Shown here piece after piece: positions 24,875 to 58,277 of a DNA stretch of 64,000 nucleotides (within the stretch, counting starts at the first letter, position 1; every line of letters starts with the position of its first letter). The notes below the pieces were generated by a model that did not search any database, was not told the origin of the DNA, and was given only the letters and a program-made list of their open reading frames with translations. The stretch is from Planctomycetota bacterium. Lineage in GTDB: Bacteria; Planctomycetota; J058; J103. A program made the position numbers and the translations under genes. Location of the stretch: contig BPJM01000001.1 of NCBI GenBank assembly GCA_026004615.1, positions 124,001 to 188,000 of the forward strand, given 5' to 3'.

Positions 24875-25060
24875 CCCGTCTCTCCCGTCCGCTTGCAGCC
24901 GCCAGCGCCAGCTGCGGCCGTCTGCTCGTCCCGCGGCCGCGGCGCCCGCGGGGCGCCCCGGCGGGCAGCGCGGCCGCGGGGCCATGCGCCCTCGCCCCTC
25001 CGCCCGGCTCCGGCGGCGGCCCCGCGCGGCGGCGGAGCCGGGCCTGCTCACCGGGCCGGG

Positions 25061-29089: not shown

Positions 29090-29350
29090 GGCCGCTCTCC
29101 CCGCCCCCGGAGCGGCGAGCATACCCCGCCCCGTGCCGGCACGTCAACACGGCGGCAGGCAACTCTCCACGGAGCACGGCGCCTGTTGAATTTCTGTACA
29201 CTTGACAGCCCCCGCGCGCGGCGAGACCATGAATCTCATTCCTGATCTGTCGGAACGGCGGTACGGGGAGGGCAGCGCCGATCACGGACCGTCGCGAACG
29301 TTGCGTGGTGGCGCCGGAGGAGTCCGGCGCCGGGAGGGAGGGAGAGGACC
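29090..29350. promoter_or_regulatory. divergent T6SS control region
   Basis: A 261-bp gap between tssK (minus) and tssB (plus), the largest within the T6SS block, with an AT-richer core near 29185-29240. On the plus strand a perfect TTGACA (29202-29207) is followed after 17 nt by a weak -10 (GACCAT, 29225-29230). No clear -12/-24 sigma-54 site or confident minus-strand promoter is visible. Both arms probably start here. Confidence 0.55.
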
Positions 29351-29936: not shown

Positions 29937-31415
29937 ATGGCGGACACGGCGCAGCAGGTCACGGTCAAGCGGTTTTTGTCGAGTCTGCGGCTCAATCCCG
30001 AGCACGCAGCCCCGAAGCCGATGGTGCAGGACAACCTGCAGACGGTCGTCGAGGAGGTGAGCGAGGAGGACCGCCTGCTGTCGGGGCTGGCGGCGGTGCT
30101 CTTCAACATCGACCGCGCCGACGGCAAGTTCAACAAGGGCAAGATCAACGATGTGATCCTGCAGATCGACAAGCTGGTCAACGCCCAGCTGAACGAGGTG
30201 CTGCACCACCCCCGCTTCAAGCAGATGGAGGCGACCTGGCGCAGCCTCAACGACCTGGTGCAGAACACCAAGTTCAAGTCCAACATCATGATCGATCTTC
30301 TGGATGTCAGCAAGGAGGAGCTGTACGAGGACTTCGAGAACAACTCGGTCGACATCAGCGGCTCGGCGCTGTTCCGCAAGATCTACGTCGACGAGTACGA
30401 CCAGTACGGCGGCAAGCCGTACGGGGGCATGATCGGGCTGTTCGAGTTCGAGCACAACCCGCGGGACCTGTTCTGGCTCCGCCAGATGGGGCGGCATGCG
30501 GCCGCCGCGCACGCGCCGTTCATCGCCAGCGTCTCGCCCCGCTTCTTCGGCTGCGAGACGATCGAAGAGGTCGCCAACATCAAGGACCTCGAGGGGATGA
30601 TGAACCAGCCGAAGTACAGCGCCTGGAACGCGCTGCGCGACTCCGAGGAGGCGGCCTACCTCGGGCTCACCATCCCGCGCTACATGTTGCGGCTGCCCTA
30701 CCACCCCGACACCAATCCGGCGGGCAACCTCAACTTCACCGAAGAGCTGGAGCCGGGCAAGAACGACAGCTACCTCTGGGGCAGCTCGGCCATCCTGTTC
30801 GCCCGCAACATGGTGCGCTCGTTCGCCGAGTCGGGCTGGTGCCAGTACATCCGCGGCCCCAAGGGCGGGGGGCTGATCACCGGGTTGCCGGTGCATGCCT
30901 TCAACGTGCGGGGCGAGGAGGAGATCCAGCTCCCGGTGGAGATCGCCATCCCGGACTACCGCGAGCTGGAGTTCGCCAACTGCGGCTTCGTCCCCCTGGT
31001 CTACCGCAAGGGCAGCGGGGATGCCTGCTTCTTCAGCGTGCAGTCGGTCAAGCGGCCCAAGAAGTTCAAGGACCCCAAGGACAGCGAGAACGCGCAGCTC
31101 GCCTGCAACCTCAGCTACACGTTCTCGGTCTCGCGCATCGCGCACTACGTCAAGTGCATCATGCGCGACAACATCGGCAGCACCGCCGATGCGGCGTACA
31201 TCCAGAACCAGCTCAGCCGCTGGGTGGGCCAGTACGTGACCAAGGTCGCCAACCCGGATGACCTGACGCTGCGCTACTACCCGTTCAAGAAGGCCGAGGT
31301 GCACGTCGAGGAGCAGCCCGGCGCGGCCGGCTGGTACAAGTGCCAGATCGCGGTCCTGCCCCACATCCAGTTCGAGGGCATGGATGTGGAGCTGCGGCTG
31401 GAGTCGCGGCTGTAG
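29937..31415 (+). CDS. tssC: T6SS contractile sheath large subunit TssC (VipB)
   Basis: A 492-residue sheath subunit of normal length. The N-terminal linker region is followed by DDVILQIDKLVNAQLNEVLHH-type helices, the FKSNIMIDLLDVSKEEL segment, RLPYHPDTNP, FARNMVRSFAESGWCQYIRG and a C-terminal domain ending FEGMDVELRLESRL, all characteristic of TssC. Codon use and spacing match tssB, and AGAGGAG lies upstream of the ATG. Its N-terminus is expected to be the ClpV recognition site after contraction. Confidence 0.97.
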   Translation: MADTAQQVTVKRFLSSLRLNPEHAAPKPMVQDNLQTVVEEVSEEDRLLSGLAAVLFNIDRADGKFNKGKINDVILQIDKLVNAQLNEVLHHPRFKQMEATWRSLNDLVQNTKFKSNIMIDLLDVSKEELYEDFENNSVDISGSALFRKIYVDEYDQYGGKPYGGMIGLFEFEHNPRDLFWLRQMGRHAAAAHAPFIASVSPRFFGCETIEEVANIKDLEGMMNQPKYSAWNALRDSEEAAYLGLTIPRYMLRLPYHPDTNPAGNLNFTEELEPGKNDSYLWGSSAILFARNMVRSFAESGWCQYIRGPKGGGLITGLPVHAFNVRGEEEIQLPVEIAIPDYRELEFANCGFVPLVYRKGSGDACFFSVQSVKRPKKFKDPKDSENAQLACNLSYTFSVSRIAHYVKCIMRDNIGSTADAAYIQNQLSRWVGQYVTKVANPDDLTLRYYPFKKAEVHVEEQPGAAGWYKCQIAVLPHIQFEGMDVELRLESRL

Positions 31416-31535: not shown

Positions 31536-32105
31536 ATGGCAGCGTTCAACAAGCAGTGCGATGTGACGCAGGGCTACAATCTGCAGCGCGACGCGCAGGT
31601 GCCGGTCGGCTATATCACCAAGCTCAAGATCGGCAACGTGGACCTGGCGGCCGACCAGAAGGTGACCACGCCGGCGGAGGGCCACGCCCAGAAGAAGGTG
31701 GTGGCGGTGCTCAGCGCGCTGGAGTGGGAGGGCGGTCAGGCGCAGCCGATCAACATGACCGGCAACGTCTCCACCGCCAACAAGCAGAAGATCAGCTCGC
31801 TGCTGCACAAGGACCTGGCCAAGACCGAGGTCCGCATCCAGATGGAGGTGTGGGAGTACGATCCGCTGGCCAAGGTCTATTTCAAGTCCTTCCACACCAA
31901 CGACGCCGACCTGATCGCGCTGCTGGCCAAGGAAGGCGAGACGCTCAAGCTCGAGGTCCAGGACACCCCGGCCACCGATGTCGTCTCGCCCCAGAACTAC
32001 GAGTTCACGATCGGGATCATGCCGGTCGAGCAGGAGTTCAATATCCACCTGGCGACCGGCGACCAGATGCCGGTCGTCAAGCTGTGGGGGGTGGCGGTCG
32101 GCTGA
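31536..32105 (+). CDS. hcp: T6SS inner tube protein Hcp (TssD)
   Basis: A 189-residue Hcp-family protein that forms the hexameric inner tube loaded with effectors. The beta-barrel pattern includes the VGYITKLKIGNVDLAADQ segment, EGHAQKKVVAVLSALEWEGG, VRIQMEVWEYDPLAKVYFKS and the C-terminal EQEFNIHLATGDQMPVVKLWGVAVG. It is slightly longer than common Hcps (about 160-172). The ATG follows GGGAGGGGAG. No effector extension is present. The 218 bp between hcp and tssL hold no gene I can support. Confidence 0.93.
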   Translation: MAAFNKQCDVTQGYNLQRDAQVPVGYITKLKIGNVDLAADQKVTTPAEGHAQKKVVAVLSALEWEGGQAQPINMTGNVSTANKQKISSLLHKDLAKTEVRIQMEVWEYDPLAKVYFKSFHTNDADLIALLAKEGETLKLEVQDTPATDVVSPQNYEFTIGIMPVEQEFNIHLATGDQMPVVKLWGVAVG

Positions 32106-32323: not shown

Positions 32324-33046
32324 ATGAAGGACCCGCTCTGGTCGGCGGTCTACGAGCTGCTGCAGGATTTCGAACGGCTGCTGGACAGCTTCGAGGTCGG
32401 CGGCTTCGGCGGCGCGGCCTCGGGCGCCGTGCCGATGCTCGGCGAGCCGGGGCCGCGCCCCGCCCCGCGCGAGGCCAAGGCCGAGCTCGGGCTGCGCCGG
32501 GCCTTCGTCGACGTCGATCGGCTGGTCACGCTGCGCCACGAGCTGCGGGGCAGGCTCGACCAGCTCAAGACCAGGCTCGCCGAGCGGCTCACCGAGCGGG
32601 AGAGCTATCTGGTGCTGTTTCCGCTCGTGATCTTCATCGACGAGACGGTGCACAAGCGCTTTCTGGCGGGCTCCGACGTCCAGTGGCCGCCGCTGCAGAA
32701 GGAGCTGTTCCAGATCGACAACGGCGGCGAGGCGTTCTACGAGGTGCTCGACGACCTCTTGCGCAAGCCCGATACCTTCCCCTTCGTCTACGAGATCTAC
32801 TATCTCTGCCTCAGCGACGGCTTCCGCGGCCGCTACCACGACAACCCGAGCAAGATCGCCGAGTACAAGTCCCAGCTGGAGAGCAAGATCCCGCGCCCGC
32901 GCCCGGAGGGGCGCGCCGGCGAGGAGCAGGCGGGCCCGCCCCTGGGGCAACGGCGCCTGCCGGTGTGGAACTACGCCGTGGCCGCGGCGCTGGTGCTGGT
33001 GGTGTTCGCCACCCTGCGCCTGCTCGGTACGGCGATGGCGAGCTGA
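32324..33046 (+). CDS. tssL: T6SS membrane subunit TssL (DotU/IcmH family)
   Basis: 240 residues. A helical cytoplasmic domain typical of TssL (PLWSAVYELLQDFERLL, RESYLVLFPLVIFIDETVHK, FPFVYEIYYLCLSDGFRGRY) is followed by a single C-terminal membrane helix (about 217-236, VAAALVLVVFATLRLLG). It forms the inner-membrane part of the trans-envelope complex with TssM and TssJ. There is no C-terminal peptidoglycan-binding OmpA domain, so wall anchoring must come from another protein or be absent. GGGGAGC precedes the ATG. Confidence 0.93.
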   Translation: MKDPLWSAVYELLQDFERLLDSFEVGGFGGAASGAVPMLGEPGPRPAPREAKAELGLRRAFVDVDRLVTLRHELRGRLDQLKTRLAERLTERESYLVLFPLVIFIDETVHKRFLAGSDVQWPPLQKELFQIDNGGEAFYEVLDDLLRKPDTFPFVYEIYYLCLSDGFRGRYHDNPSKIAEYKSQLESKIPRPRPEGRAGEEQAGPPLGQRRLPVWNYAVAAALVLVVFATLRLLGTAMAS

Positions 33047-33054: not shown

Positions 33055-33496
33055 ATGGCGCCTGGACTGGAGGAGATCTTCGACCTCGAACGGCTGCGCC
33101 GGCGGTGGTCGGGCAGCGGCGGCACCGCCGCGACCGGCGCCACCGGGCCGCAGGCCGCCGGCGCGGGCCTGCAGCGAGCGGCCGCACCGCCTCCGGTGGA
33201 GGGCCCTGCCGCGCGGGCGGCGCGGCCGCGCGCAGAGCCCCTGGTGCTGCTCGGGCAGCTGCAAGCGGCGCTGGCGGCCGAGGCGGAACCGGGGGCGGTC
33301 CAGGCGGCAGCGCCGCTGTTCGCCCCGCGCCGAGGAGCTGCTGCGCCGCCAGCAGGGCCTGCCCCCGGCACCCGCGGCCGGGGGCGAGCCGGCCGCGGGC
33401 GCGCCTCTGGCGGGGGCCGAGCTGGCGGCGAGCCAGGCCGAGCTCGCCGCGGTCCTGGATGCCCTGGAAGACCTCTTGGAGGCACTGGGATGCTGA
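33055..33496 (+). CDS. small T6SS-locus protein between tssL and tssH, frameshifted
   Basis: From the ATG at 33055, 8 nt after the tssL stop, coding-like sequence begins GLEEIFDLERLRRRWSGS. After the 4-C run at 33323-33326 the good phase shifts by one base and continues AEELLRRQQGLPP to [13 protein letters not shown], ending at a TGA (33494-33496) that overlaps the tssH ATG by 7 nt. Removing one C gives about 146 residues: an amphipathic N-terminal helix, a Pro/Ala linker and a C-terminal leucine-rich helix. As sequenced, the unshifted frame runs on into tssH through Gly/Arg-rich nonsense. Not a recognised core component; possibly an accessory to TssL or ClpV. Confidence 0.6.
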
Positions 33497-36129
33497 TCGA
33501 ACGGTTCACGCTCAAGGCCCAGGACGCGATCGAGCGCGCCGGCCGCCTCGCCGTCAAGGAGGGCCACCAGTACGTCACCCCCGAGCACCTGCTGGTGGCC
33601 CTCATCGAGACCGAGGATGGACCGACCCGCCGGTACCTCGAACTCGCCGAGGTCGACATCCCGGGGTTGACCAAGGCGCTCCGCCGGCGCTTCGCCGAGC
33701 TGCCCAAGGCGGGCCCCGGCACCCAGGAGACCACCATCAACCGCGCGCTCGAGGCGCTGTTCATCCGCGCCGACGAGAACGCCTCGGGGCTCGAGAGCAA
33801 GTACATCGCGATCAACCACCTGCTGCTGGGCGCGCTCGGCGATGACGGCGTCGGTTCGTGCCTGCAGGCGGTCGGGGCGAACCTGCCGGCGCTCGAGCGG
33901 GTGCTGCGCGATGCGGGCACCGGCCGCTACAAGGCGGGCGAGGGCGGGCTGAGCGGGTTCGAGTTCCTCAACCAGTTCACCACGGATCTGACCGCGCTCG
34001 CCCGCGACGGCAAGCTCGACCCCGTCATCGGGCGCGACGCCGAGATCCGCCAGACCATCCAGGTGCTCTCGCGCCGGCTCAAGAACAACCCGCTGGTGAT
34101 CGGCGAGCCCGGAGTGGGCAAGACGGCGATCGTCGAGGGACTGGCCCAGCGGGTCGCTGCCGGCGACGTGCCCGATGACCTGCGCGACCACGCGATCATG
34201 GCGCTCGATCTCGGCCGGCTGCTCGCCGGCGCCAAGTACCGCGGCGAGTTCGAAGAGCGGCTCAAGGGCCTGATCCAGGAGGTGATCGACGCCGGCAACG
34301 TCATCCTGTTCATCGACGAGATCCACATGCTGATCGGCGCCGGCGGCATGGAGGGCGGCATGGACGCCTCCAACCTGCTGAAGCCGGCGCTCTCGCGCGG
34401 CCAGATCCGCTGCATCGGCGCCACCACCCTGGAGGAGTTCCGCAAGCGCATCGAGCGCGACAACGCGCTGACCCGGCGCTTCCAGGTCGTGATGTGCGAG
34501 GAGCCCACCGTGGAGGCCACCATCTCGATCCTGCGCGGTCTCAAGGAGAAATACGAGGTCCACCACGGGGTGCGGATCGCGGATCCGGCGCTCGTCGCCG
34601 CCGCCAAGCTGTCGCGCCGCTATCTGACCGAGCGGTTCCTGCCGGACAAGGCGATCGACCTCGTCGACCAGGCGGCCGCCAACCTCCGCATGGACGTGCA
34701 CACCAAGCCGGAGCAGATCGAGACCATCGACCGCACGATCCTGCAGCTGGAGATCGAGCTGCGGGCCCTGGCCCAGGAGACCGACGCCGAGACGGTGCGC
34801 CGCCGCGAGGAGATCCGCGGCGAGCTGGAGGCGCTCAAGCGCCAGAGCGCCGAGCTGACCGAGATCTGGAAGAAGGAGAAGGCGGCGCTGTTCGAGGCCA
34901 GGCAGGCCAAGGAGGAGCTGGAGGAGGCCCGGCGCGAGCTGGAGCGCAAGCTGCGCGAGGAGGATTTCGCCCGCGTCGCGGAGCTGCAGTACAAGATCAT
35001 CCCCGACCGCGAAAAGGTGCTGGCGGCCTTCGGCGACCTCGATCTGCACGAGCTCCGCTTCCTGCAAGCCGAGGTGGGTCCCGAGCAGATCGCCGAGACG
35101 GTGGCCCGGCTCACCGGCATCCCGGTCTCCAAGATGCTGGAGTCCGAGCGCACCAAGCTGCTCCGCATGGAGGAGGTGCTGCGGGCCCGCGTGGTCGGCC
35201 AGGAGGAGGCGGTGAGCGCGGTCGCCAAGGCGGTCCGCCGCTCGCGCGCGGGGCTGCAGGACCCGGGCCGCCCCATCGCCTCGTTTCTGTTCCTCGGCCC
35301 GACCGGCGTCGGCAAGACGGAGCTGTGCAAGACGCTGGCCGAGTTCATGTTCGATGACGAGGCGGCGCTGCTCCGCTTCGACATGAGCGAGTTCATGGAG
35401 AAGCACACCGTGGCCCGCCTGCTCGGTGCGCCCCCCGGCTACGTCGGCTACGAAGAGGGCGGGCTGCTCACGAACAAGGTGCGCCGCCGCCCCTACAGCG
35501 TCGTGCTCTTCGACGAGGTCGAGAAGGCGCACGGCGACATCTTCCACATCCTGCTCCAGGTGCTGGACGACGGGCGGCTGACCGACAGCCAGGGCCACAC
35601 CGTGGACTTCACGAACACGATCATCATCCTGACCTCCAACCTCGGCGCCTCGGCGATCGAGCACTTCGAGAGCGACGAGCAGTACCAGCAGATGCGCGAG
35701 GCGGTGATGAAGGCTGTGCGCGGCCACTTCCGGCCGGAGTTCCTCAACCGCCTCGACGAGATCATCATCTTCCGCCGGCTGACCGCCGACGCCATGGCTC
35801 CCATCGTCGACATCCAGCTGCGGCGGCTGCAGCGCCTGCTCGCCGAGCGGCGCATCGCGCTGGCGGTGACCGAGGAGGCACGGCGTGCGCTCGCCGAGGA
35901 GGGCTACGATCCGGTCTACGGCGCGCGCCCGCTCAAGCGCGTCATCCAGCGGCGCCTGCAGGACCCGCTGGCCGAAGCCCTGCTCGAACAGCGCATCCTC
36001 GACGGCCAGACGGTGCAGGTGCGGCTCCATGACGGCCAGCTGGTGATCGAGCCCGCGCCCGAGCCGCCGGCCGCCGCCGGAGCGCCGGCGGCGCCGCCGG
36101 TGGAGGCGGGTGCGCCGGCGGGGGACTGA
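33490..36129 (+). CDS. tssH: T6SS sheath-recycling AAA+ ATPase TssH (ClpV)
   Basis: An 879-residue Hsp100 ATPase that disassembles contracted TssBC sheaths. A Clp N-domain starts [17 protein letters not shown]. The first AAA+ domain has Walker [10 protein letters not shown] (about residue 205) and Walker [10 protein letters not shown] coiled-coil M domain spans about 410-520. The second AAA+ domain has GPTGVGKTE (about 603) and [10 protein letters not shown], followed by a C-terminal D2-small domain and a Pro/Ala-rich tail. Sequence alone is close to ClpB, but the location within the T6SS arm makes ClpV the better call. The ATG overlaps the end of the preceding small gene. Confidence 0.92.
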
Positions 36130-36195: not shown

Positions 36196-39100
36196 GTGGA
36201 CGAACTCTTCAACGCAGTCGTGGACGCCCTGCCGGCGAGCACCGCCGGCAAGGTCTTCGCCATCGTGGTCATCCTGGCGGCGCTCGCCCCGCTCGCCTAC
36301 CTCGGCGGCAAGATGGTGGCGCAGTGGTGGCGCGCCCGCCGCGAGCGCAGGACGCCCGCGCGCACAGCCCCCCCGCGGCCGGCACTCCGGCCCCGCACCC
36401 TGTCGCGCATCTGGAAGCGCTTCCTGCGCCAGATCCCGTGGGAGTTCCGCCGCGCGATCCTGCGCTACCAGCCCTTCGTGGTCCTGGGGGCCGCCGGCAG
36501 CGGCAAGACGGCGCTCATCTCCACCTTCACCGACTGGCAGGGGCAGGCGGCCCGGTTCTACTCCAGCTACTCGGTCGAGCGCGAACTGCAGATCTACCTC
36601 GGCTCGCAGGCGCTGGTCCAGGAGATCCCCTCGGCGCTGCTCGACGACATCTCGCAGGCGGCGCGCACCGCGCTCGTCAAGCTGTGGAAGCGGACGCTGC
36701 GCAAGCGCGAGCCCATCGCCGTGATCGCCCTCAATGCGGCCGCCCTGCGCGGCCTGGCGCCCGACGCCATCCGGCGCCAGGCCCAGGTCATGCGCGGCAA
36801 GATCAACGTGATCGCCCGGCTGCGCGGCAAGCCGGTGGAGACCCGCCTCGTCCTCACCCACATGGACAAGGTGGACGGCTTCCTCGCCTTCTCGCAGTTT
36901 CTCGACCGGCACGACATCCCGCTCGTCGTCGATCTGTCCGCGCCCGCGACGCGCGCGGACCTGAGCCAGGCGCTGGTGCCCTACGAGCGGTATCTGCCGC
37001 TGGCGCTCACCACCATGAGCGCCAAGGCGTACAAGAAGGTGCTGACCTTCCTGGCGAAGGTGCCCGCCCTGCTGTCGCTGGTGGACATCTTCGCGCGGAC
37101 GCTGTGCGACAAGGACCCCCTGTCGCACGAGCCGGAGCTGAAGGAGCTGTATCTCACGACGGATTCGGCGCCCTCCTCCACCGCCGCCGCCAATCCGTTC
37201 ACCTCGAGCTGGGATCCGGGCCTGCTGGAGGCGGAGCGGCTGGCGCACCGCCGGCACCGCTGGGCCGCCACCGCCGCCGCCGCCGCGCTGCTCGCCATGC
37301 TCATCGGCGGCTTCGTGCTGGAGCACCGCGAGTACACCCGGGCCATGGCGGCCCTGGCCGCCTTCGAGAAATCCCCGCAGCCCAGCGAGGCGGAACAGGT
37401 CCGGGTGCGATTGGCAGCGCTGCAGGACGGTGCCGGCCCGGCGCTCATGGGTCTGGTGCCGCGTTTCTTCAGCCACGCCGAGCAGGGGGTGCGCAGCCAG
37501 TTCCTCGACCTCATCCGCACCCGCTACCTGCTGCCGGCTCTGGAGCACGCCGCCGCCGCCGCCGATCCCCAGGACCGGACCCTGTTCCTGCTGGCGCTGC
37601 TGTATGCCACCCGTGACAACGACCTCGGCCGGCTGGTGCGCGAGCGGGCTGCCGACTGGGCGGGGGCGGTGCTGGTGCCCGAGCACCTGATCCGGACCTA
37701 CGTCGAGCAGAGCCGCACCCAGTGGGACGGTCTGGCACCGCTGCCGGCCGAGGCCTTCAAGCCGGCCCCGCGTGCGGTCAGCGACCTGCAGCCCTGGCTG
37801 GCCTTCTTCATGGAGCTCGAAGACGCGCTGCGCAATCCCAGCCTCGCGCCCGCGGACCTGGAGCAACTTCGCCAGACCGCCACCGAGCGGCTCAACGACA
37901 TGGCCGCCGCGCGCCGCAACCAGTTCGCAGTCGAGGTCTACACCCGGCTGCGCGCCTCGACACGGTTGCCGCTGCAGAGCGTCTTCGGGCCCTACATCGA
38001 GACCCTGACCATCCCCTACTGGATGAGCCGCTACGGGGATGCGATCGAATCGACCCTGCTCATGGTGCGCGCCGCGCACCTGGAACTGCCCGCGGTCGAG
38101 GGCATGACGCTGCCGCAGCTGTTCCTGCACCTGCAGGCGCTATCGCAGCTGCCCCGCTCGGACACGGTGCACCGCTTCGCGCTCGCCGACCGCGATTTCG
38201 CGTTCGAACCCCGCAGCTGGCACCGGCTGATCGCCACCAGCCGCATGCGGCTGCTGATCCAGCGCTTCGTGGCTCACCACCGGCGGGCGGCCGGCCGCTC
38301 GTTCTTCGGCAAGGGCGAGCGCTATCCCGACATCGTCATGAACCCGACCAATCTCGGCGAGTTCTTGTTCGCCGGCAAGGGACGGGTGCCGGGGCTGTAC
38401 ACGCGACCGGCGTACGAGGGCGAGGTGCGGCGGGTGGTGCTGGCGCTGCAGGCGCTGCTCGCCGAGGCCAGGCTCGATGAGACCGTGCGCGCCGACCTCA
38501 ACAACTTCATCTCCCAGGAGGTCGAGCACTACGCGATCGGCTACGAGGAGGCGTGGCGCAAGTACTACCAGGCCTTCGCCATCCGCGCCGAATCGCTCGG
38601 CGGCCTGCTCATCGCACTCGACCAGATGCAGCTGCCGGACTCGCCGTTCGCCGAGTTCTTGCGCACGGTCGCCACCCACACCGCACTCGACACCTCCGCC
38701 TCCCCGCTCCTGCGCCCGCTCGCGGAGCACCTGCGAGACTTCCAGTTCGTCAACCTCCTGCTCCAGCAGAAGCAGGGTGCGGAGCTGGAGACCTACCGGC
38801 TGATCCTGCGGCGCATCCATGCCGATCTGCAGGGCGTGCCGCCGGAACAGGGAGACGCCGCCGCAAAACCGGCCACCGTGGCGGCGCCGCCGGAGTTCCT
38901 CGCCACCCTGAGCCCGCTCGCGCGCGTCAGCCTCGGCATCCTGCAGGAGCACCGCGACAGCTACCTGCGCCTGGTCGAGCGCTGGCTGGACAACACCGGC
39001 ATCGTCGCCGAGTGGCGGGCTCCCTTCATGGCACCGGTGAGCCAGCTGTACGAGCTCGGGCTCGCCGATCTGCAGGCAGCGGTGCTCGGCAACTGGCGCA

Positions 39101-40056
39101 ACCGCGTCCTGACCGTCCTGCTGCCGATGGCGAGCCGCTTCCCGTTCAACCCCCAGTCCACCACCGACATCGCGCCGCTGGAGCTGGAGAAGGTGCTCCA
39201 TCCCGCGACCGGATCGTTCTGGGAGCGGTGGCGGCAGTATGCGGCGCCGGTGTGCCGGGAGAGCGGCGGGCGCTGGGCGCCGCTGGGCGGTCCGGGCGAG
39301 GCGTTCCGGCTGCCGTCGGTGATCTTCGAGCTGGTCGATCACCTGGCCGCGGTGCGGGACGCACTGTGGGACCGGGACGGCAACCCCCAGCCGCTGGTGC
39401 TGTTCGCCTACCCGCATCCGCTGCCCGCTGGCCAGCCCGGCGAGCCCGCCGGCACGCTGTCGTTCCTGCGCACCGGCAAGGCCTCCGCCTTCGGCTTCAA
39501 CCAGAAGCAGGCCTGGCAGCGCTTCGCCTGGGAGTGGTGGCAGAGCTACCCGTGCCAGGTCGGCCTCCAGATGGGGGATCCGCGTGACGACGACGTCTGG
39601 TACCGGACCCTCACCGTGCCCCAGGCGTTCTGGGCGCTGCTCAAGCTGCTGCGCATGGGGGAGCGGCGGCTCGGCAACACCTGGAGCTGGACGCTGCGCG
39701 AGGGCGGCGAGCCGCTGGACGCCCCGGCCGTCCGCTTCAGCTTCCGCGACGATCCCTGGCAGCCCTTCGCCATCGAGGGCCTGCTCGCCGCCGCCCGCCA
39801 CCCGGGCGGCCGGCCCGCCTCCCCCGCTGCCCGCCCTGCCGCCCCCGCGCCCGAGCCGGCCGCCGCCGAACCCGCCGCCGGCGGGGGCGAGGCCCAGGAC
39901 GAGCAGCACCAGGAGGCGATGGAAGAGCAGCAGGAACAGGCGGCGGAGGAGCAGGAGCAGGCCGGCGGCGGGCAGGAGCGCGCTGCCGCCGGGGCGATCG
40001 AGGGCGACGAGGACGAGGAGGTCGTGCCGCAAACGGAGGAAGAAGAGGAATGGTGA
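36196..40056 (+). CDS. tssM: T6SS inner-membrane channel subunit TssM (IcmF)
   Basis: A 1286-residue IcmF-family protein. The first membrane helix is at about 18-36. A cytoplasmic NTPase-like domain has Walker A GAAGSGKT (residues 98-105) and a THMDKVDGF guanine-type motif. A second membrane helix at about 355-375 is followed by a long periplasmic region of about 900 residues that contacts TssJ. The last 70 residues are a Gln/Glu-rich acidic tail (VVPQTEEEEEW), which is unusual. The start is GTG at 36196 with GAGGA upstream. The intact P-loop suggests nucleotide binding. Confidence 0.94.
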   Translation: MDELFNAVVDALPASTAGKVFAIVVILAALAPLAYLGGKMVAQWWRARRERRTPARTAPPRPALRPRTLSRIWKRFLRQIPWEFRRAILRYQPFVVLGAAGSGKTALISTFTDWQGQAARFYSSYSVERELQIYLGSQALVQEIPSALLDDISQAARTALVKLWKRTLRKREPIAVIALNAAALRGLAPDAIRRQAQVMRGKINVIARLRGKPVETRLVLTHMDKVDGFLAFSQFLDRHDIPLVVDLSAPATRADLSQALVPYERYLPLALTTMSAKAYKKVLTFLAKVPALLSLVDIFARTLCDKDPLSHEPELKELYLTTDSAPSSTAAANPFTSSWDPGLLEAERLAHRRHRWAATAAAAALLAMLIGGFVLEHREYTRAMAALAAFEKSPQPSEAEQVRVRLAALQDGAGPALMGLVPRFFSHAEQGVRSQFLDLIRTRYLLPALEHAAAAADPQDRTLFLLALLYATRDNDLGRLVRERAADWAGAVLVPEHLIRTYVEQSRTQWDGLAPLPAEAFKPAPRAVSDLQPWLAFFMELEDALRNPSLAPADLEQLRQTATERLNDMAAARRNQFAVEVYTRLRASTRLPLQSVFGPYIETLTIPYWMSRYGDAIESTLLMVRAAHLELPAVEGMTLPQLFLHLQALSQLPRSDTVHRFALADRDFAFEPRSWHRLIATSRMRLLIQRFVAHHRRAAGRSFFGKGERYPDIVMNPTNLGEFLFAGKGRVPGLYTRPAYEGEVRRVVLALQALLAEARLDETVRADLNNFISQEVEHYAIGYEEAWRKYYQAFAIRAESLGGLLIALDQMQLPDSPFAEFLRTVATHTALDTSASPLLRPLAEHLRDFQFVNLLLQQKQGAELETYRLILRRIHADLQGVPPEQGDAAAKPATVAAPPEFLATLSPLARVSLGILQEHRDSYLRLVERWLDNTGIVAEWRAPFMAPVSQLYELGLADLQAAVLGNWRNRVLTVLLPMASRFPFNPQSTTDIAPLELEKVLHPATGSFWERWRQYAAPVCRESGGRWAPLGGPGEAFRLPSVIFELVDHLAAVRDALWDRDGNPQPLVLFAYPHPLPAGQPGEPAGTLSFLRTGKASAFGFNQKQAWQRFAWEWWQSYPCQVGLQMGDPRDDDVWYRTLTVPQAFWALLKLLRMGERRLGNTWSWTLREGGEPLDAPAVRFSFRDDPWQPFAIEGLLAAARHPGGRPASPAARPAAPAPEPAAAEPAAGGGEAQDEQHQEAMEEQQEQAAEEQEQAGGGQERAAAGAIEGDEDEEVVPQTEEEEEW

Positions 40057-40178
40057 GTCCGGCTCCGGAGCACGGCGCCCGGGGTGCCGGCGCGGCGCGG
40101 TCCGGCTCCCCCGCGGCCCTTGCGGCCTCCGGCGGCGAGCAGCGCATGGAATCGACAGAGCGAGGTCCTGAGACAGCG

Positions 40179-40640
40179 ATGAACGAGCAGGGCACAGCTC
40201 GTGCGGGCGAGCGCAGCCCCCGCCGGCACCGGCTGGTGCCGCTGGTGCTCGCGCTGGCGGCCGCCGCCATCGCCGGTGGCGGCTGCGCCTCCGGGCGGGC
40301 GACGCTCCGGATCGAGGCGGCGGCGCAGACCAACGACGGACGGCCGCTCTATATGGTGCTGCGCGCGGTCGACGGCGCGGAGTTCGTGACCGAGACCTAC
40401 GAGGACATCGCCGCGCGCGTGTTCGCGGCCCCCCCGGACCCGTCCATCATCCGCGCCGACGTCGTCTACCCGGGGATGGTGCGCGCCATCGCCTTCGATC
40501 CCCCGGAGCGCAAGCCCATCGGCGTCTACTTCCTGTTCACCGAGCCCGGCGACCGCTGGAAGACCATGCTGCAGCAGCCGCTGCCCTCGACGGTCGAGAT
40601 CCGGCTCGGGCCGAACACGATCATCGGTACGAGCCCCTAG
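40179..40640 (+). CDS. tssJ: T6SS outer-membrane lipoprotein TssJ
   Basis: About 153 residues. The N-terminus is basic then hydrophobic and ends IAGGGC, with Cys36 as lipidation site. The mature domain is a small beta-sandwich with NDGRPLYMVLRAV and VYFLFTEPGDRWK, in the expected place directly after tssM. Similarity to TssJ is by layout and context more than by strong motifs. Starts at 40050 (overlapping the tssM stop) and 40146 are also in frame. I prefer the ATG at 40179 because it gives the most normal lipoprotein signal. Confidence 0.75.
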   Translation: MNEQGTARAGERSPRRHRLVPLVLALAAAAIAGGGCASGRATLRIEAAAQTNDGRPLYMVLRAVDGAEFVTETYEDIAARVFAAPPDPSIIRADVVYPGMVRAIAFDPPERKPIGVYFLFTEPGDRWKTMLQQPLPSTVEIRLGPNTIIGTSP

Positions 40641-40660: not shown

Positions 40661-42469
40661 ATGTCCGAGTCCCCGGACGAGCCCTTCGATCTCGCCTTGC
40701 TGAGCCGCGGGCTCGAGGTCGCCGAGCATCATCCTCCGCCCGCGCTGCCATGGCTGGCGGCGAGCTGGCGTGAGCCGCACCGGTTCTGGGAGCGGCTGTG
40801 GGCGGCGCATGCGGCTGCGTTCGCGGTGCGGCCGAAGAGCCGGCCGGCGGAGTACTACGACTTCTACCACGATGCGGTGCTGCGCCACCACCGCTCGCCT
40901 GTCCCGGCTCTGCGCTGGTTCGTGCCGGAGACCGCGAGCTGGCGCGAACTCTCCTACGCCGAACTCGACCGGCGCGCCCGTGCCCGCGCGGGCAGCTGGC
41001 GCGCCGCCGGCGTCGAGGCCGGGCAGTCGGTGTGCGTGATCGAACCGCCAGGCCCCGAGTGGCTGGTGTCGCTCGCAGCCGCGCTCGCGCTGGGAGCGGT
41101 CGTCAGCGTGCTGCCCCCGCTCGGCGAGGGCTTTCTGGCGCGGCGGCTGGCGGCGCTCCAGCCCCACCACCTCGCCGCCGACCTGGCCTACTCCCTGCTC
41201 GTGCCCGCGTTCGCCGAGCGGTTGCTGCCGCGCACCGCGGACGGTGCCGGCGCCGCTGCTGCCGAGTTGCCCGTGCACGCCACCGCCACCTACGCGACCG
41301 GGACGCCGGTGGCCCGGCTGTTCTCCCCGCTCGATCGGGAACCCCACCTGCCCCGGGCGCTGCTCGCCGACGATGCCTACCTGCGCGCGGTGCGCGACGG
41401 CCGCCTGCTGCTGGGCCTGGGGCCCGCAGACGCGCTCGCGGCGCCGGACGCCCACCCGCTGCAGGAGCTGCCGGCGCTGCTGCTGGCGAGCCTGCTCGCC
41501 GGCGCCACCTACGTCCACCTGCCCCTGGAGGCGGTGCAGGCGGAGCCGGCGCTGCTGCGCGAGCTGGATCTGCGCGTGCTCGGGGTCTCGCGCCGGCTGC
41601 GCGACCTGCTCGCCTGCTGGGACGGCGAGCTGAGCGGTTGCGCCCGGAGCTGGTTCCGCAATCCAGCCGAGGCCGTCGATGCGATCGTCTGGCAGGAGGT
41701 GGCGGCGCGCACCGGGCTCGGCCGCCTGCCCGGAGCCAACCTGCTGTTGGACGCCGCCTCGGGCGGGGCGGTGTTGTTCTCGCCGCGGCGCACCCGCTAC
41801 GTGCAGCTGGAGGTGCTGCCCGCACCGGGAGTGCCGTGGGCGCTGCGCGAGCTGGTGGCCGGCGGCCGCGCCCCGGCCGTGCAGGGCGCCGGCACGGCAC
41901 CCTTCGGCCTGTTCGCCCCCCAGCCGCACGATCCGGAGGCGCCGCCCCCGTTCGGCGGGCTGTTGCTCGTCCGTGCCCCCGATCGCTGGTTCTACGCCGG
42001 CACCGCCGAGCTCCGCCGCTTCGGCCGCACCTATCCCCGGACCGAGGTGCTGCAGGCGCTGCAGGGCCTGTTGCCGGGCGCGCAGCTGGCGCTGGCGGTG
42101 GCGCCGACCGGGGATGCGGCGCAGCCGCACCGCTTCGTGCTGCTGGTGTTCGTCGGCCCCGAACGCCGCGCGGCCATCGCCGAGCAGGGCGAGCGGTGGG
42201 CAGCTGCCATCCGGGCGCGCCTCGCCCATCACCTGGCGCCGGAGTTCCTGCCGGATGAGATCGAGTTCTATCCGCTGCGAGCACGCGAGCAGGACGGCGC
42301 CATCGACCAGGCGTGGTGCCAGGCGCAGTTCGTCAGCGGGGCGCTGGCCCGCAAGAGCCGCCGGCGCACCTGGGCGTTGCTCGCCGAACTGCGCAGCGCC
42401 CTGGCCCCGCCGCTGGGAGTTGCACCCGAGGTGCCGGCGGCCAGCGAGCGGCCAGCGGAGGAGGTGTAG
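40661..42469 (+). CDS. degenerate AMP-dependent synthetase/ligase-like protein in the T6SS locus
   Basis: 602 residues with the overall order of an ANL (acyl-CoA synthetase-like) enzyme. The N-terminal helix and strand region has WRELSYAELDRRARARA and an ALALGAVVSVLPP segment. The core segment LLAGATYVHLPLEA leads to VLGVSRRLRDLLA. The hinge region is at GTAELRRFGRTYPRTEV (447-463) and a C-terminal lid follows. Catalytic motifs are altered: the P-loop-equivalent stretch near Tyr211 reads YATGTPVAR instead of the Ser/Thr/Gly-Lys motif, no YGxTE is seen, and the lid lysine of GKIDR is Ala547 (GAIDQ). Adenylation is therefore unlikely. It sits between tssJ (20 nt upstream) and tssA. I infer a structural or binding role tied to the T6SS. 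Confidence 0.7.
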   Translation: MSESPDEPFDLALLSRGLEVAEHHPPPALPWLAASWREPHRFWERLWAAHAAAFAVRPKSRPAEYYDFYHDAVLRHHRSPVPALRWFVPETASWRELSYAELDRRARARAGSWRAAGVEAGQSVCVIEPPGPEWLVSLAAALALGAVVSVLPPLGEGFLARRLAALQPHHLAADLAYSLLVPAFAERLLPRTADGAGAAAAELPVHATATYATGTPVARLFSPLDREPHLPRALLADDAYLRAVRDGRLLLGLGPADALAAPDAHPLQELPALLLASLLAGATYVHLPLEAVQAEPALLRELDLRVLGVSRRLRDLLACWDGELSGCARSWFRNPAEAVDAIVWQEVAARTGLGRLPGANLLLDAASGGAVLFSPRRTRYVQLEVLPAPGVPWALRELVAGGRAPAVQGAGTAPFGLFAPQPHDPEAPPPFGGLLLVRAPDRWFYAGTAELRRFGRTYPRTEVLQALQGLLPGAQLALAVAPTGDAAQPHRFVLLVFVGPERRAAIAEQGERWAAAIRARLAHHLAPEFLPDEIEFYPLRAREQDGAIDQAWCQAQFVSGALARKSRRRTWALLAELRSALAPPLGVAPEVPAASERPAEEV

Positions 42470-42586: not shown

Positions 42587-43597
42587 ATGCCTGACATCAC
42601 CCTGCTCATGAAGCCGCTCGCCGCCCAAGGCGAGCCGGGGCTCGATACCCTCGACGAGCGGTTCCAGACCATCGTCGGCCTGGTGCAGAACGCGGAGTTC
42701 GCGCCGGCCGCCGAGCGCACCGAGGCGGTGGTGCGCGAGGGCATCTACGATGTGCGCTTGCTCGGCTACTTCCTGTACGGGGTGTTCCTGGAGCGGGGCG
42801 TGGCCGCCCTCGGGGAGATCCTCGACTGCCTGGTCCGCACCCTGACCGAGAACTGGAACGCCTTCGGGCCCGCTCGCAAAAAGGAGCGCCACGCCGACAA
42901 CGCGCTGCTCTGGTTCATGAACCGGCTGTACAGCCAGCTCGAACACGAGCAGCAGCGCTCGAGCGAGACCTACCAGGGCTGGATCCAGCAGCTCCAGAGC
43001 GAACAGCTGGAGGCCTTGCAGGACAAGGTCGAGGCGCTGCGCAAGACCATCCTCCAGGTGCTGCCCGAGTCCAAGGTGCTGGAGCTGTTGCCCAAGCTCA
43101 GGACCTGGCTCACCCAGTTCCACAAGATCGTGTACGCCGAGCAGCAGGAGGCCGCGGCCGAGCAGGCGGCGGCCGAGCAGGTCGCTGCCGAGACCGAGGC
43201 GCCGGCCGCGGGACGGGCCGGCCCCGGCCCCGCCCCCGGGCTCGCCGCGGCCGCGGCGAGTGCCGCGCCGGCGCGCGGCGACGGAGGCGCGCCGCTGCCC
43301 ATGGTCCAGGGCTCCCATCTGCTGCAGGAGCTGCTGCGCAAGCTCGAGGCGTTCGAGCGGCTGGTCGCCAAGGAGGCCTACGAGCGCGCGGCGGTGGTGG
43401 CGGCCGACATCAACGAGCTCGTCGAACACTTCGATCCGCGGCGCTATCTGCCGGGATTGTTCGCCTCCTACTACCGGCTGCTCAGCGAGCGCATCCGCGA
43501 GATCGAGCCCCACCTGGAGAACCGCGACTCGCTCGCCTGGCAGTCGATGAGCCAGCACTACCAGGTCGACCTCGAATCCTTCGTCGAGCATGACTGA
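42587..43597 (+). CDS. tssA: T6SS assembly protein TssA (ImpA-type)
   Basis: 336 residues. The N-terminal ImpA-like domain is recognisable in IYDVRLLGYFLYGVFLERG, ALGEILDCLVRTLTENW and the ARKKERHADNALLWFMNRLY segment. A Glu/Gln-rich helical middle, an Ala/Pro/Gly linker (about 195-235) and a C-terminal helical domain (YYRLLSERIREIEPHL) follow. TssA proteins prime or cap sheath polymerisation. This is a shorter, diverged class. The 117 bp between the preceding gene and the ATG hold no separate gene. The tssA stop overlaps the following ATG by 8 nt (ATGACTGA). Confidence 0.82.
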   Translation: MPDITLLMKPLAAQGEPGLDTLDERFQTIVGLVQNAEFAPAAERTEAVVREGIYDVRLLGYFLYGVFLERGVAALGEILDCLVRTLTENWNAFGPARKKERHADNALLWFMNRLYSQLEHEQQRSSETYQGWIQQLQSEQLEALQDKVEALRKTILQVLPESKVLELLPKLRTWLTQFHKIVYAEQQEAAAEQAAAEQVAAETEAPAAGRAGPGPAPGLAAAAASAAPARGDGGAPLPMVQGSHLLQELLRKLEAFERLVAKEAYERAAVVAADINELVEHFDPRRYLPGLFASYYRLLSERIREIEPHLENRDSLAWQSMSQHYQVDLESFVEHD

Positions 43598-46500
43598 GAG
43601 CACCGCCACCGCCGCCGATCCCCGCGGCGCCCTCGCCGAGCGCCTGGAGCGGCTGGCGCGCTGCGGGCGCCGGCACGGCAGCGCCCGCGGCGGCGCCGCC
43701 GACGGGGCGGCCGCCCGCCCGCCGTGCGACGACGAGCTGCTCTGCCCGTGGTGCGCGCGGCGCGCGGCCGACCGCGCCGCGCGCCACGCCCTGGACACCT
43801 GGGGCCCGGTCTGCGCCGTGCGGCTGGTGGGCCCGCCCGGCGCGCGGGCGGCGCTGCGCGCCGCCTGCGACGCCGAGCTGCAATGGCTCGCCACCATCAC
43901 CATCGCCGGCCGCGGGGCCGTCCGGCCGCGCTGGGTCGAGGGGTTCGACCACGTGTGGCTGTTCTTCCCCGAGGCGCTGCGCCCCGCGCTGGAGGACCGC
44001 TACGGCGAGCGGTTGGTCTCCCTGTCGCCCGCTGGCGCAGGCGAGGAGCTGCGGCGCACCTGGCTCAGCGTGCACGAGGCAGCGATGGCCGCCCAGGCGG
44101 CGGCCCCCGACGACCCGGCAGCGGCGCTGGCCGGCTTGCCCTGGCTCACCGAGCCCGAGGCGCCGCGCACCGGCGGCGGCACGGAGGCATGCGCCGCGCT
44201 GGGCTGGGTGGGCGAGCAGGCCCCGGCGGCGGCCCGCGCGTTGCTCGACGCGGCGCGGCCGCAGCCCGACGCACCCCGGCGGCTGCCCGTGCCCGCTCGC
44301 CGCCCGGAGCGGCCGCCGCCCCCGCCCGAGCCGCCCGCGCCCAAGAACCTGGAGCAGGCGCTGGGGGCCTATCGGACCGCGCTCGCGGTGGCCGAGGCCC
44401 TGGTCGAACAGAAGCCCGAGCACATGCCGTGGCAGCGGGATGTGCTGTTCGCCTACCGCAACATCGCGCGCACGCTGCGTGCGCTCGGGCGACCGGACGA
44501 GGCCCGCCAGTGCTGCGCGCAGGCGCTGGTGCGCTCGCACGCGGCGCTCGCCCTCGATGCGACCAACCCCGAGGTCCAGCGTGCGCTGGCCGCGCTGCAA
44601 CGGGAGCGGGCTGCGACGCTGGCCGCGTGCGGGGAGCTGCGCGAGGCCACCGAGGCGCTGCGCCAGGAGCTGGCGATCCAGGGGCGGCTGGTCCGCCTGG
44701 CGCCGGATCCCGACCACCCCGCCTTGCAGCGCGAACTGCTCGAGGCCAACCTGCGGCTGGGCGCGCTGTGCGCGGAGCTGGGCGACGACGCGCAGGCGCT
44801 GGCGGCCTACGGCGCGGCGGCCGATGTCGCCGAACGCATGGCGGCGCTGCGCCCGCAGGAGCCGGTCTGGCAGCGCGAGCTGGCGGCGGCGTGCGAGCTG
44901 GCCGGCCATGCGCTCGCCGCCACGGGCCAGCTCGCCCAGGCGCGCGAGGCGCTGCAGTCCGCCTACGCCGCCTACGAGCTGCTCGCGGCTGCCGAACCCG
45001 CCGAGCCGGCGCACCGGTTCGGCCTGCATCGCACGCGCACCGCGCTCGGCCAGGTGCTCCAGCGCCAGGGCGCGCTCGAGGCCGCACGCGAGGTGCACGG
45101 CGCCGCGCTCGCCCTCGCCACCCGGCAAGCCGCGCTCCAGCCGGACGCGGCGGACTGGCACCGGGCCGTCGCCGCCAGCCACGAGCACCTGGCCGAGGTC
45201 GCGCTCGCGCTCGGCGACGCCCAGGCGGCCTACGAGGCCTGCAAGGCAGCGGTGCTGGCGCGCGACGCCGTCGCGCGCCGCGAGCATGCCGAAGCCCGCT
45301 GGCAGCGCGAACTGCTGCTGGCGCGGCTCATGACCGGAGACGTGCTGCGGGCGCAGGGCGACGAGCGGGGTGCCCTGGCCACCTACCGCGCGGCGCTGCC
45401 GCTGGCGCAGGCGCTGTGGGAGGCGGCCCCGGACGATCCCGAGCGCCAGCGCGATCTGGCGATCGCCGAGGGGCGGCTCGGCGACATGTGGCTCGCGCAG
45501 GGGGCGGTCGGCGAAGCCCTGGCGCACTACCGCCGCGCGCTGGAGCGGAGCGAGGCCCTGTGCGAGGCCGCGCCCTCCGATCCCCGGCGGCGCGCCGACC
45601 TGGCGGCGGCCCGCCAGCGCGTGGGCGACGCATTGCGCGCGCGCGGCGACCTGGAGGAGGCGCTCGCCGCCTACCGGGCCGCCCTCGCCGGTCACCGCGA
45701 GCTGGCGGAACAGGCTCCGGACGACCACGACGCGCAGCGCCAGGTGATGCTCGGTCACCTGGACTGCGGCGAACTGCTGGCGGCGCTCGGCGACTGGCCC
45801 GCCGCCTACGAGCAACTGCACGCCGCGCTCGAACTGGCGCAGGAGCTCTTCGCGCTCGATCCCGACCCGCCGGCGCGCCGCCGTGACCTGGCGATCTGCC
45901 AGGAGCGGTTGGGCGAGGTGCTGCTGGCCGAGGGGGATCTGTCGGCGGCACTGCGGCTGCAGCTGGCGGCGCTCGCGGTGCGCGAGGGTCTGCTGGCCGA
46001 GCGGCCCGAGGAGCTGGTGCGGCGGCGTGATGTGGCCGCGAGCCGGCAGCGGCTCGGCGAGGTGTACATGGCCCGCGGGGAGGCGCGCGAGGCGATCGAG
46101 AACTTCCGTGCGGCGCTGGCGCTGCGCGAGGACCTGGTGCGGCGCGAGCCCACGCGCGCGCCCTGGCTGTACGATCTGGCGCTCGGCCAGCGGCGGCTGG
46201 CCGCCGCACTGGCGGCCAGCCTGGAGCTGGAGCCGGCACTCGCGCTGGCGCGGGCGGCGGTGGCCTCCGCGGAGCAACTCGCCCAGCTCGAGCCGGGCAA
46301 CGCGAGCTGGCTCGCCGAACTGGCGGCCTGCCGCGAACAGGTGCGCGAGATCGAGCGCACGCGCGCCGAGCTGCCCGAGGCGGGGACGCGCGAGCGCATC
46401 CACCGCCTGCAGCGCGAGGCGGCGCGCTTCGACGTCATCGCCCTGCTGGAGCAGCTCCGCCGTCTGGGCTACGACGCCGATGACATCCTGTTTCGGAGCA

Positions 46501-47240
46501 ATCCCCTGCCCACCGCCCAGAGCAGCCTCGTGCACGGGGTGGAGTTCCTCACCCACCCGGTGCGCCAGGTCGTCGTGACCCTGAACATGGGGCTGCTGAC
46601 CCCGTTCAGCCCGCTGCCCAGCTACTTCCAGAAGATCATCGACCAGGCCGAGATCGACGAGCAGGCATTCCTGGACTTCCTCGGGTTCTTCGACCACTGG
46701 ATCCTGCAGAGCTACCTCGGCGCCGCCTATCCCGAGCGCAATCCGGCGATCTATCCCCGGTGGGAAGAGACCAAGCGCCACTACCTGCAGCTGCTCGGGC
46801 TGCGCGCGCCAGCGACCCTGTACTGGCTGTTCCGGCTGGCCTTCCCCGAGCTGGGCCTGCAGGTCCAGCGCTGCCGCCTCGGCCGCGCGCTGGGACTGGA
46901 ACCGGCGCGCCTCGGCCACGCCGCGCTCGGCGGCGCGCATGCCCTGGGCGGCCGCACGGACGTGCAGGTCACCGGCTTCGAGATCGTGCTCTACGCCGAC
47001 GACGAGCAGACCGATGACGGCCGCGCGTGGCCGGAGGAGGTGGCGCGCCGGCTCCAGGAGCTGCTCTTCCCGCTGCTGCGCGACCCCATGCTGGAGCTGC
47101 TGGTGCGGCTCGTCATCCGCACCCAGAAGGGCTGGGCCCGGCTCACCCCGCAGAGCTACCTGGGCTTCGACCGCATCCGGGGGGGCCCGGAGACGGCCCG
47201 CACGGTCATCGTCCACCAGGGTCCCGTCCCGCGCGGCTGA
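43590..47240 (+). CDS. tssG: TPR protein fused to T6SS baseplate subunit TssG
   Basis: 1216 residues. Residues 1-60 contain a possible zinc cluster (Cys25, His29, Cys46, Cys52, Cys55). Residues 60-225 are an unassigned alpha/beta domain, followed by a Pro-rich linker (about 225-250). A long array of TPR-like helix pairs runs from about 255 to 930, with repeats such as RLGEVYMARGEAREAIENF. The last 280 residues match TssG/ImpH/VasB: ARFDVIALLEQLRRLGY, LFRSNPLP, MGLLTPFSPLPSYFQKI, FLDFLGFFDHWIL. TssG joins TssF in the baseplate wedge and is normally about 300-350 residues on its own. No other tssG is in the locus, so this gene must supply it. The ATG overlaps tssA. Confidence 0.85.
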   Translation: MTESTATAADPRGALAERLERLARCGRRHGSARGGAADGAAARPPCDDELLCPWCARRAADRAARHALDTWGPVCAVRLVGPPGARAALRAACDAELQWLATITIAGRGAVRPRWVEGFDHVWLFFPEALRPALEDRYGERLVSLSPAGAGEELRRTWLSVHEAAMAAQAAAPDDPAAALAGLPWLTEPEAPRTGGGTEACAALGWVGEQAPAAARALLDAARPQPDAPRRLPVPARRPERPPPPPEPPAPKNLEQALGAYRTALAVAEALVEQKPEHMPWQRDVLFAYRNIARTLRALGRPDEARQCCAQALVRSHAALALDATNPEVQRALAALQRERAATLAACGELREATEALRQELAIQGRLVRLAPDPDHPALQRELLEANLRLGALCAELGDDAQALAAYGAAADVAERMAALRPQEPVWQRELAAACELAGHALAATGQLAQAREALQSAYAAYELLAAAEPAEPAHRFGLHRTRTALGQVLQRQGALEAAREVHGAALALATRQAALQPDAADWHRAVAASHEHLAEVALALGDAQAAYEACKAAVLARDAVARREHAEARWQRELLLARLMTGDVLRAQGDERGALATYRAALPLAQALWEAAPDDPERQRDLAIAEGRLGDMWLAQGAVGEALAHYRRALERSEALCEAAPSDPRRRADLAAARQRVGDALRARGDLEEALAAYRAALAGHRELAEQAPDDHDAQRQVMLGHLDCGELLAALGDWPAAYEQLHAALELAQELFALDPDPPARRRDLAICQERLGEVLLAEGDLSAALRLQLAALAVREGLLAERPEELVRRRDVAASRQRLGEVYMARGEAREAIENFRAALALREDLVRREPTRAPWLYDLALGQRRLAAALAASLELEPALALARAAVASAEQLAQLEPGNASWLAELAACREQVREIERTRAELPEAGTRERIHRLQREAARFDVIALLEQLRRLGYDADDILFRSNPLPTAQSSLVHGVEFLTHPVRQVVVTLNMGLLTPFSPLPSYFQKIIDQAEIDEQAFLDFLGFFDHWILQSYLGAAYPERNPAIYPRWEETKRHYLQLLGLRAPATLYWLFRLAFPELGLQVQRCRLGRALGLEPARLGHAALGGAHALGGRTDVQVTGFEIVLYADDEQTDDGRAWPEEVARRLQELLFPLLRDPMLELLVRLVIRTQKGWARLTPQSYLGFDRIRGGPETARTVIVHQGPVPRG

Positions 47241-47438: not shown

Positions 47439-48356
47439 GTGATCCGAAGCGGGCGGCGCGAAGCTCGGTGGGCCCAGAGCGGCGGCGGGCCGGGTTGTGT
47501 GGCCGCGCTCGTGCTGCTCTGCTGCGCGGGTGGCTGTGCCGGCACCCCGGCCCCCCGCGCGCGGCTGGCGCGCGCCGACTGCCCCTTGTCGTTCGTCTGC
47601 TGCTACGCCCGGGAGGTGCGGCCCGAGCAGCTCGAGGGCTTCGCGCTGGCGATCCTCGACGCGCAGGTGCGCGCCGCCCCCGCGGCGTTCGCCGAGCAAG
47701 GGCGGATCGTGCTCGGCTACCTGTCGCTCGGCGAGACCGCCACCCATGACCCGGCATGGCCCGAGCACGCCGGGCAGCCCTATCTGGTGGAGCCCAATCC
47801 GGACTGGCCCGGCTCCTGGCGGGTCGATCCGCGCGCGCCGGCCTGGCGGGCGCACGTGCTCGCCCGGGCCGAATGGCTCCTGGCGCGCGGCTTCCACGGT
47901 TTCTTCCTGGATACCGCCGACGTGGCCGCCTGGCTCGAGGAGCGGGACCCGGCGCGTTTCGCCGGCGCGCTCGAGGCCATGATCGAGCTGGTGCAGGCCC
48001 TGCGCGCGCGCTTCCCCGAGGCCCCCATCGTGCTCAACCAGGGCCTGGCGCTCTACCCCGCGGTGCGGCCAGCGGTGGACGCGGCGCTCGCCGAGGGGCT
48101 GTTCGCGCGGTACGACTTCGCCGCGCGGCGCTACGAACCCACCCCCGATGATCCCTCGGAGCGCGGCCGGCGCGAGCGCTTCGCGGCGCTGCGCCGGAGC
48201 GGCCTGCGCGTGCTCAGCGTCGAGTACGCCCCGCCCGAGGACACCGCGCTCATCGCGCACGCGCTCGCCGGCTGCCGGCGGCTCGGCTTCGATCCCTACA
48301 TCGCGACCGTCGAGCTCGATACGGTGCGGCGGGATGCGCTGGAGCTCGTGCCATGA
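47439..48356 (+). CDS. PelA hydrolase part as separate lipoprotein (GH114/GH166-like)
   Basis: 305 residues. The lipoprotein signal ends CCAGGC (Cys33). The mature part is a TIM-barrel of the TM1410/endo-alpha-1,4-polygalactosaminidase type, with Glu99 in LGYLSLGET, Asp158 in FFLDTAD and IVLNQGLAL. This matches the hydrolase half of PelA, which cuts the Pel polymer (partially deacetylated galactosamine-rich). GTG start with GTAAGGG upstream. The 198-bp gap before it shows no gene and may hold the pel promoter, which I cannot pinpoint. Its stop overlaps the deacetylase ATG. Confidence 0.82.
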   Translation: MIRSGRREARWAQSGGGPGCVAALVLLCCAGGCAGTPAPRARLARADCPLSFVCCYAREVRPEQLEGFALAILDAQVRAAPAAFAEQGRIVLGYLSLGETATHDPAWPEHAGQPYLVEPNPDWPGSWRVDPRAPAWRAHVLARAEWLLARGFHGFFLDTADVAAWLEERDPARFAGALEAMIELVQALRARFPEAPIVLNQGLALYPAVRPAVDAALAEGLFARYDFAARRYEPTPDDPSERGRRERFAALRRSGLRVLSVEYAPPEDTALIAHALAGCRRLGFDPYIATVELDTVRRDALELVP

Positions 48357-58172: not shown

Positions 58173-58277
58173 GAGCGCGGGCGCGAGAGCATGACCGGGC
58201 TCCGGCCGTGCGCGCGGCGCCCAGGGGGTATCGGTGAGACGGAGCGCAGTCGCGATGCGGACGGAGGAGCGCCGGCC

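Follow-up and report, generated by a model that had tools for sequence, protein, structure and literature searches.

The locus described here raises the question of whether TssG, a component of the T6SS baseplate, occurs in a Planctomycetota genome (GCA_026004615.1) exclusively as the C-terminal part of a long TPR protein, and of what the TPR part would do at the baseplate. The region analysed is a 64,000-nucleotide stretch of contig BPJM01000001.1 (positions 124,001 to 188,000), referred to here as the window, and coordinates are those of the window unless preceded by a locus name. The open reading frame at issue (P0001; 43590–47240, forward strand) begins with an ATG inside the 3′ end of the preceding iglI gene, the two genes sharing 8 nt, and contains 1216 codons and a stop, exactly as in the original prediction from the sequence. 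We confirm that in one Planctomycetota family TssG forms the C terminus of a far larger TPR protein.

The fusion gene stands at the right end of a predicted gene cluster (23204–47240) that is a complete Francisella-like T6SS. In the rightwards direction the cluster encodes TssB (29351–29869; T6SS_VipA, 4.8e-39), TssC (29937–31415; VipB, 1.5e-115), a protein in the Hcp position (31536–32105) that has no Pfam match and is assigned by homology and by its synteny after TssC in relatives, TssL/DotU (32324–33046; PF09850, 4e-26), a ClpB/ClpV-type ATPase (33490–36129; AAA_2, ClpB_D2-small and Clp_N), TssM in the IcmF/PdpB role (36196–40056; TIGR03348, 8e-15, below cut-off, with homologues in related clusters), an IglE-like protein in the TssJ role (40050–40640; PF22361 (IglE_N), 1.8e-25, over cut-off, the NCBIfam IglE equivalog being below cut-off), an ANL (AMP-binding)-like protein (40661–42469), an IglI-family, TssA-like protein (42587–43597; NF041244, 1.8e-93, over cut-off; TIGR03362, 1.9e-9, below cut-off) and the fusion. 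Genes on the reverse strand encode TssK (27830–29122; PF05936, 8e-47), TssE (gp25; 27461–27826; PF04965, 1e-9), an unnamed 578-residue protein (25723–27459), a short VgrG-like protein of the Francisella TssI type (25061–25648; NF041249, 4.8e-4, below cut-off, and synteny) and TssF (23204–25051; PF05947, 3e-28; TIGR03359, 1e-27). The fusion is co-encoded with TssE, TssF and TssK, one of the features by which we judged its membership of TssG. The 578-residue protein has no Pfam or NCBIfam match and has homologues in most relatives at about 30–38% identity; it is possibly a spike or PdpA-like part.

The cluster has in common with the Francisella FPI (T6SSii; PMC9600919) the IglI-family, IglE-like and short VgrG-like proteins and a TssF with a weak IglH match, the general TssF model scoring better than the IglH model, which is below cut-off. 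It differs from the FPI in having a recognisable TssE and the ANL-like protein, and as equivalents of IglJ, IglF, IglG and PdpA were not recognised in it by profile search we label it Francisella-like only. The ANL-like gene is itself conserved near iglE, iglI and tssG, with homologues in 7 of 18 related loci (e.g. L008:1352-3127 and L049:7481-9133) that adjoin tssG in G008 and Uabimicrobium; its product matches no more than the start of AMP-binding enzymes (PF00501, 1.6e-10, residues 86–153 only), and may serve this type of T6SS as a component with an ANL fold but no catalytic activity. Directly downstream of the fusion is a GH114 glycoside hydrolase gene (47439–48356) whose product has a lipoprotein-like N terminus, and which is either cargo or an unrelated gene. 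A large HEAT-repeat protein is encoded further downstream (58191–61421), and in G008 a gene between tssG and tssB (L008:4025-6925) encodes a membrane protein whose repeats are HEAT-like.

The tail of the fusion (residues 926–1216; 46365–47240) corresponds to the baseplate wedge adaptor TssG. Whole-protein Pfam and NCBIfam scans of the fusion do not list TssG, and the tail thus needs a separate search; the C-terminal 287 residues then match Pfam T6SS_TssG (PF06996) with an E-value of 1.1e-8 (35.1 bits, cut-off 24.6), and match TIGR03347 TssG at 6e-6, under that model's cut-off. The TssG signatures quoted in the original prediction are present in the reading frame, with MGLLTPFSPLP at residues 1000–1010, and the tail shares 48% identity with the TssG of G008, which is stand-alone. 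A profile of 18 TssG sequences matches the solved TssG chains 6n38_G and 6giy_C with E-values of about 2e-5, and these same chains occupy the first two Foldseek PDB ranks for the tail model (6giy_C, probability 0.97; 6n38_G, probability 0.94), at a global TM of about 0.3. In both EAEC and Francisella, TssK trimers accommodate the TssG foot motifs (PMC6300606, PMC9600919), defined as TssK-binding in PMC9600919, and two such feet can be found in the tail: RLGHAALGGAHALGG (residues 1107–1121; 46908–46952), with three hydrophobic-small pairs, and RLTPQSYLGFDRIRGG (residues 1184–1199; 47139–47186), in a low-pLDDT loop of the TssG model. Both are aligned and conserved in the 18 TssG sequences. The TssK of the cluster retains, with equal spacing within HWEMGQTLLPEHF, the N-terminal pocket residues W8, L14 and F19 of EAEC TssK, whose positions are taken from PMC9600919. 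Given the Pfam and PDB profile matches, the Foldseek ranks, the conserved feet and the TssK pocket residues, the tail is best read as a functional TssG retaining both TssK feet. It shares with EAEC TssG (PDB 6n38 and 6giy; PMC6300606) the profile and fold match, both foot loops and a place in a complete T6SS cluster, but the EAEC protein is stand-alone, has 366 residues and no TPR, and the sequence in common with the fusion tail is short and weak. Francisella IglJ, a proposed TssG (PMC9600919), likewise has two feet but is small and stand-alone.

A TssG search of the genome, a draft of 3.87 Mb in 17 contigs that is an estimated 78% complete, found the fusion locus as its sole match, and the whole fusion protein used as a query matches only itself; the claim that TssG is present solely in fused form, behind a large TPR part, against which a stand-alone tssG elsewhere would have counted, therefore stands for this part of the genome. 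The missing part leaves room for a view in which this is an accessory protein whose tail derives from TssG and serves for docking, the true tssG lying elsewhere, and one Myxococcota genome (G392) does contain both an extended and a stand-alone TssG. We regard this as very improbable here, as the cluster is contiguous and otherwise has one copy of each core part, the fusion occupies the tssG position of the Myxococcota loci L046 and L047, and both feet have been kept.

Nor does the fusion appear to be an artefact of assembly or a frameshift that joined a TPR gene to tssG. Such an origin could be entertained for a draft genome, and the only sister reading frame stops at a contig end. But the GC3 is 0.90–0.98 in all 60-codon blocks and the frame is without a stop, indicating that it is coding over its full length; the repeats are gapless, the gene is interior to contig 1, and the same junction, behind the same upstream iglI, occurs in an independent second genus. 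On these sequence grounds an artefact is nearly excluded.

Between the N-terminal region and TssG the protein forms a TPR array (residues 246–917; 44325–46340), which matches Pfam TPR_12 at 5e-15 (55.8 bits, cut-off 30.1). The array had been described as about 15 TPR-like units; its TPR nature holds, but there are 14 units, and these are 48 residues long rather than the ordinary 34, in perfect register and without gaps, as confirmed with an HMM of the unit. In the AlphaFold2 model each unit consists of two helices of about 20 residues, with pLDDT mostly above 90, and the solenoid passes into TssG through a continuous 38-residue helix (residues 905–942; 46302–46415). Foldseek matches the solenoid to OGT, LGN/Pins and other TPR superhelices; the superhelical fold is shared, but the units of the fusion have longer helices and the proteins are otherwise unrelated. 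The superhelices of OGT and LGN/Pins bind peptides, and partner binding is typical of TPR superhelices. The remaining part, residues 1–245 (43590–44324), has a proline-rich end, is mostly of low pLDDT in the full-length model, and appears lineage-specific. The cysteines of what had been called a Cys-containing domain are present (C46-x5-C52-x2-C55), but the region has no Pfam or NCBIfam match, yielded nothing beyond chance-level matches (E 6e-4 or worse), none of them a convincing homologue, when 294 Planctomycetota genomes were searched, and is absent from the sister fusion.

That sister fusion is in G001, another genus of the same family, where iglI is again followed by TPR-TssG with the same junction, showing that the arrangement recurs in a second genome. 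Its TPR part aligns over the full length with an overall identity of 38%, and is followed by 32 aligned residues of TssG, 62% identical, before the contig stops. Identities of individual TPR units between the two genera are 25–50%, the divergence being rather even along the array, and no clear conserved patch of a fixed ligand site is evident in this comparison.

The in-frame linkage in G001 also bears on whether the gene yields two products in vivo, by cleavage or internal re-initiation, with an ordinary TssG entering the baseplate and the TPR protein free in the cytoplasm. TssG is normally stand-alone, and codon 918 is an in-frame GTG, placed 29 residues ahead of the FD motif and near the starts of stand-alone TssG proteins. 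However, no Shine-Dalgarno-like stretch precedes this GTG, an in-frame ATG is lacking from residue 860 to residue 999, and in the model a single helix runs unbroken across the junction; with the linkage itself retained between genera, we think two products improbable, and prefer to treat the protein as a single TPR-TssG chain.

Relatives of the fusion tail were not matched when the full protein was scanned as a single sequence against genome contigs, but a TssG alignment used as the query recovered 18 loci; the same alignment had no match in viral contigs. TssG proteins of the same subfamily (G008/L032, L028, L034–L048, and Candidatus Uabimicrobium amorphum L049) are about 30–49% identical to the tail and come from the same type of cluster, but have no TPR and are typically 282–318 residues long (302 in G008 and 313 in G128; that of Ca. 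Uabimicrobium amorphum, with an insertion, has 388). Subfamily loci without TPR are also found in Desulfobacterota, Myxococcota and Gammaproteobacteria. A TPR array on TssG was seen neither in the 18 named relatives nor in about 80 TssG from 299 Pseudomonadota genomes, for which every frame longer than 600 residues was inspected, and the 48-residue repeat is missing from every reading frame of 23 related-locus sequences. Long stop-to-stop frames at other TssG (up to 1004 residues) were considered as further fusions, but 16 such regions, including all the Pseudomonadota frames above 600 residues, lack a TPR unit, so that frame length alone is not evidence of fusion; a further candidate TssG (L019, frame 701) is a chance match in a membrane protein. 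In L046 and L047 the order ANL-iglI-tssG is the same as in the window, with tssG directly behind iglI and no TPR. This conserved order and the absence of the repeat from relatives are most simply explained by a gain, and an ancestral member of the family probably acquired the TPR module at the boundary of iglI and tssG; the TssG tree is poorly resolved and was kept out of this argument. We found no report of a TPR-fused TssG in the open literature, most subscription papers being outside this coverage; what is new concerns the form of TssG and not the type of secretion system.

Several other features of these loci were observed. Francisella-like T6SS clusters with IglI-family, IglE-like and short VgrG-like proteins are present in Planctomycetota, Desulfobacterota, Myxococcota, Shewanella and Psychromonas (window 23204–47240; L027, L028, L034–L049); a 2016 survey had T6SSii confined to Francisella (PMC4793230). 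In Ca. Uabimicrobium amorphum TssB and TssC appear as a single 856-residue reading frame (L049:10798-13368). The G008 cluster is flanked by two paralogous metallopeptidase-like reading frames (HExGH) and a lipase-like one (GHSLGG) (L027:3669-4631, 4751-5698 and 5770-7416), which are probable effectors.

Long N-terminal extensions of TssG also occur in three Myxococcota genomes (L043:8288-10981, L053:640-2373 and L054:1504-3027). Like the fusion these carry their extra residues ahead of TssG, but the extensions are apparently disordered and Ala/Pro-rich, with T-x-x-L/I repeats (e.g. TLIL) and without TPR. We note that the T-x-x-L/I motifs resemble FHA-docking phosphothreonine sites, and that two FHA-like reading frames are near tssG in L043. 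Two other Myxococcota genomes have C-terminal extensions. In this subfamily extra modules have been added to the TssG N terminus more than once, and EAEC TssG tolerates a fusion at its N side but not at its C side (PMC6300606).

As to what the solenoid does, two TssG and hence two solenoids per wedge had been proposed. The EAEC wedge is (TssK)6-(TssF)2-(TssG)1-(TssE)1 and holds a single TssG (PMC6300606, PMC9600919), which would give one solenoid per wedge and six per baseplate. The N-terminal helix of EAEC TssG lies in a helical stem that contacts the sheath protein TssC, and the TssK trimers held by its feet reach the membrane complex (PMC6300606); TssG–TssM contacts in EAEC are reported in work cited there. 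Of the recruitment roles suggested for the TPR part (effectors, the membrane complex or regulators), that for the membrane complex looks the least likely, since the N terminus of TssG would be in the sheath-side stem, an orientation borrowed from an EAEC protein only distantly related to the fusion tail.

We consider the fusion to be, with fair probability, a working TssG whose TPR superhelix serves as a baseplate-anchored docking arm. As in EAEC, each wedge would have a single copy, whose tail would contact TssF and two TssK trimers in the usual way, and with the stem toward the sheath side the six arms would radiate around the baseplate in the cytoplasm. There, as docking sites that never leave the baseplate, they could keep a partner needed for assembly or loading at a higher local concentration while the baseplate is built. 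We favour docking because the solenoid resembles the OGT and LGN/Pins superhelices, which are generally known as peptide binders. Among candidate partners we would place IglI, the TssA-like protein whose gene overlaps the start of the fusion, ahead of cargo or assembly factors, although for IglI itself this is doubtful. The solenoid could alternatively be purely structural, bracing neighbouring wedges or the first sheath ring, or forming a steric collar, with no exchangeable ligand; the even divergence along the array and the 14 units in a high-confidence superhelix are compatible with such a role, as is a location at the stem on the sheath side (PMC6300606). However, relatives assemble the same T6SS and have no TPR array. 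This, together with the general tendency of TPR superhelices to bind partners, makes a purely structural solenoid unlikely, and we retain the docking arm as the preferred reading.

TssG is a tightly placed wedge adaptor that touches TssF, TssK, TssE and the sheath, and a natural fusion that adds roughly 930 residues to it shows which of its ends is free. We tentatively speculate that the six arms form a cytoplasmic docking ring, fixed to the baseplate, that selects cargo or assembly factors before firing; were this so, clients would be recruited on the wedge itself, and not at the VgrG/PAAR/Hcp tip or by separate adaptors. In electron tomography the fusion should help to place the N-terminal stem, and it points to a site of recruitment on the baseplate.
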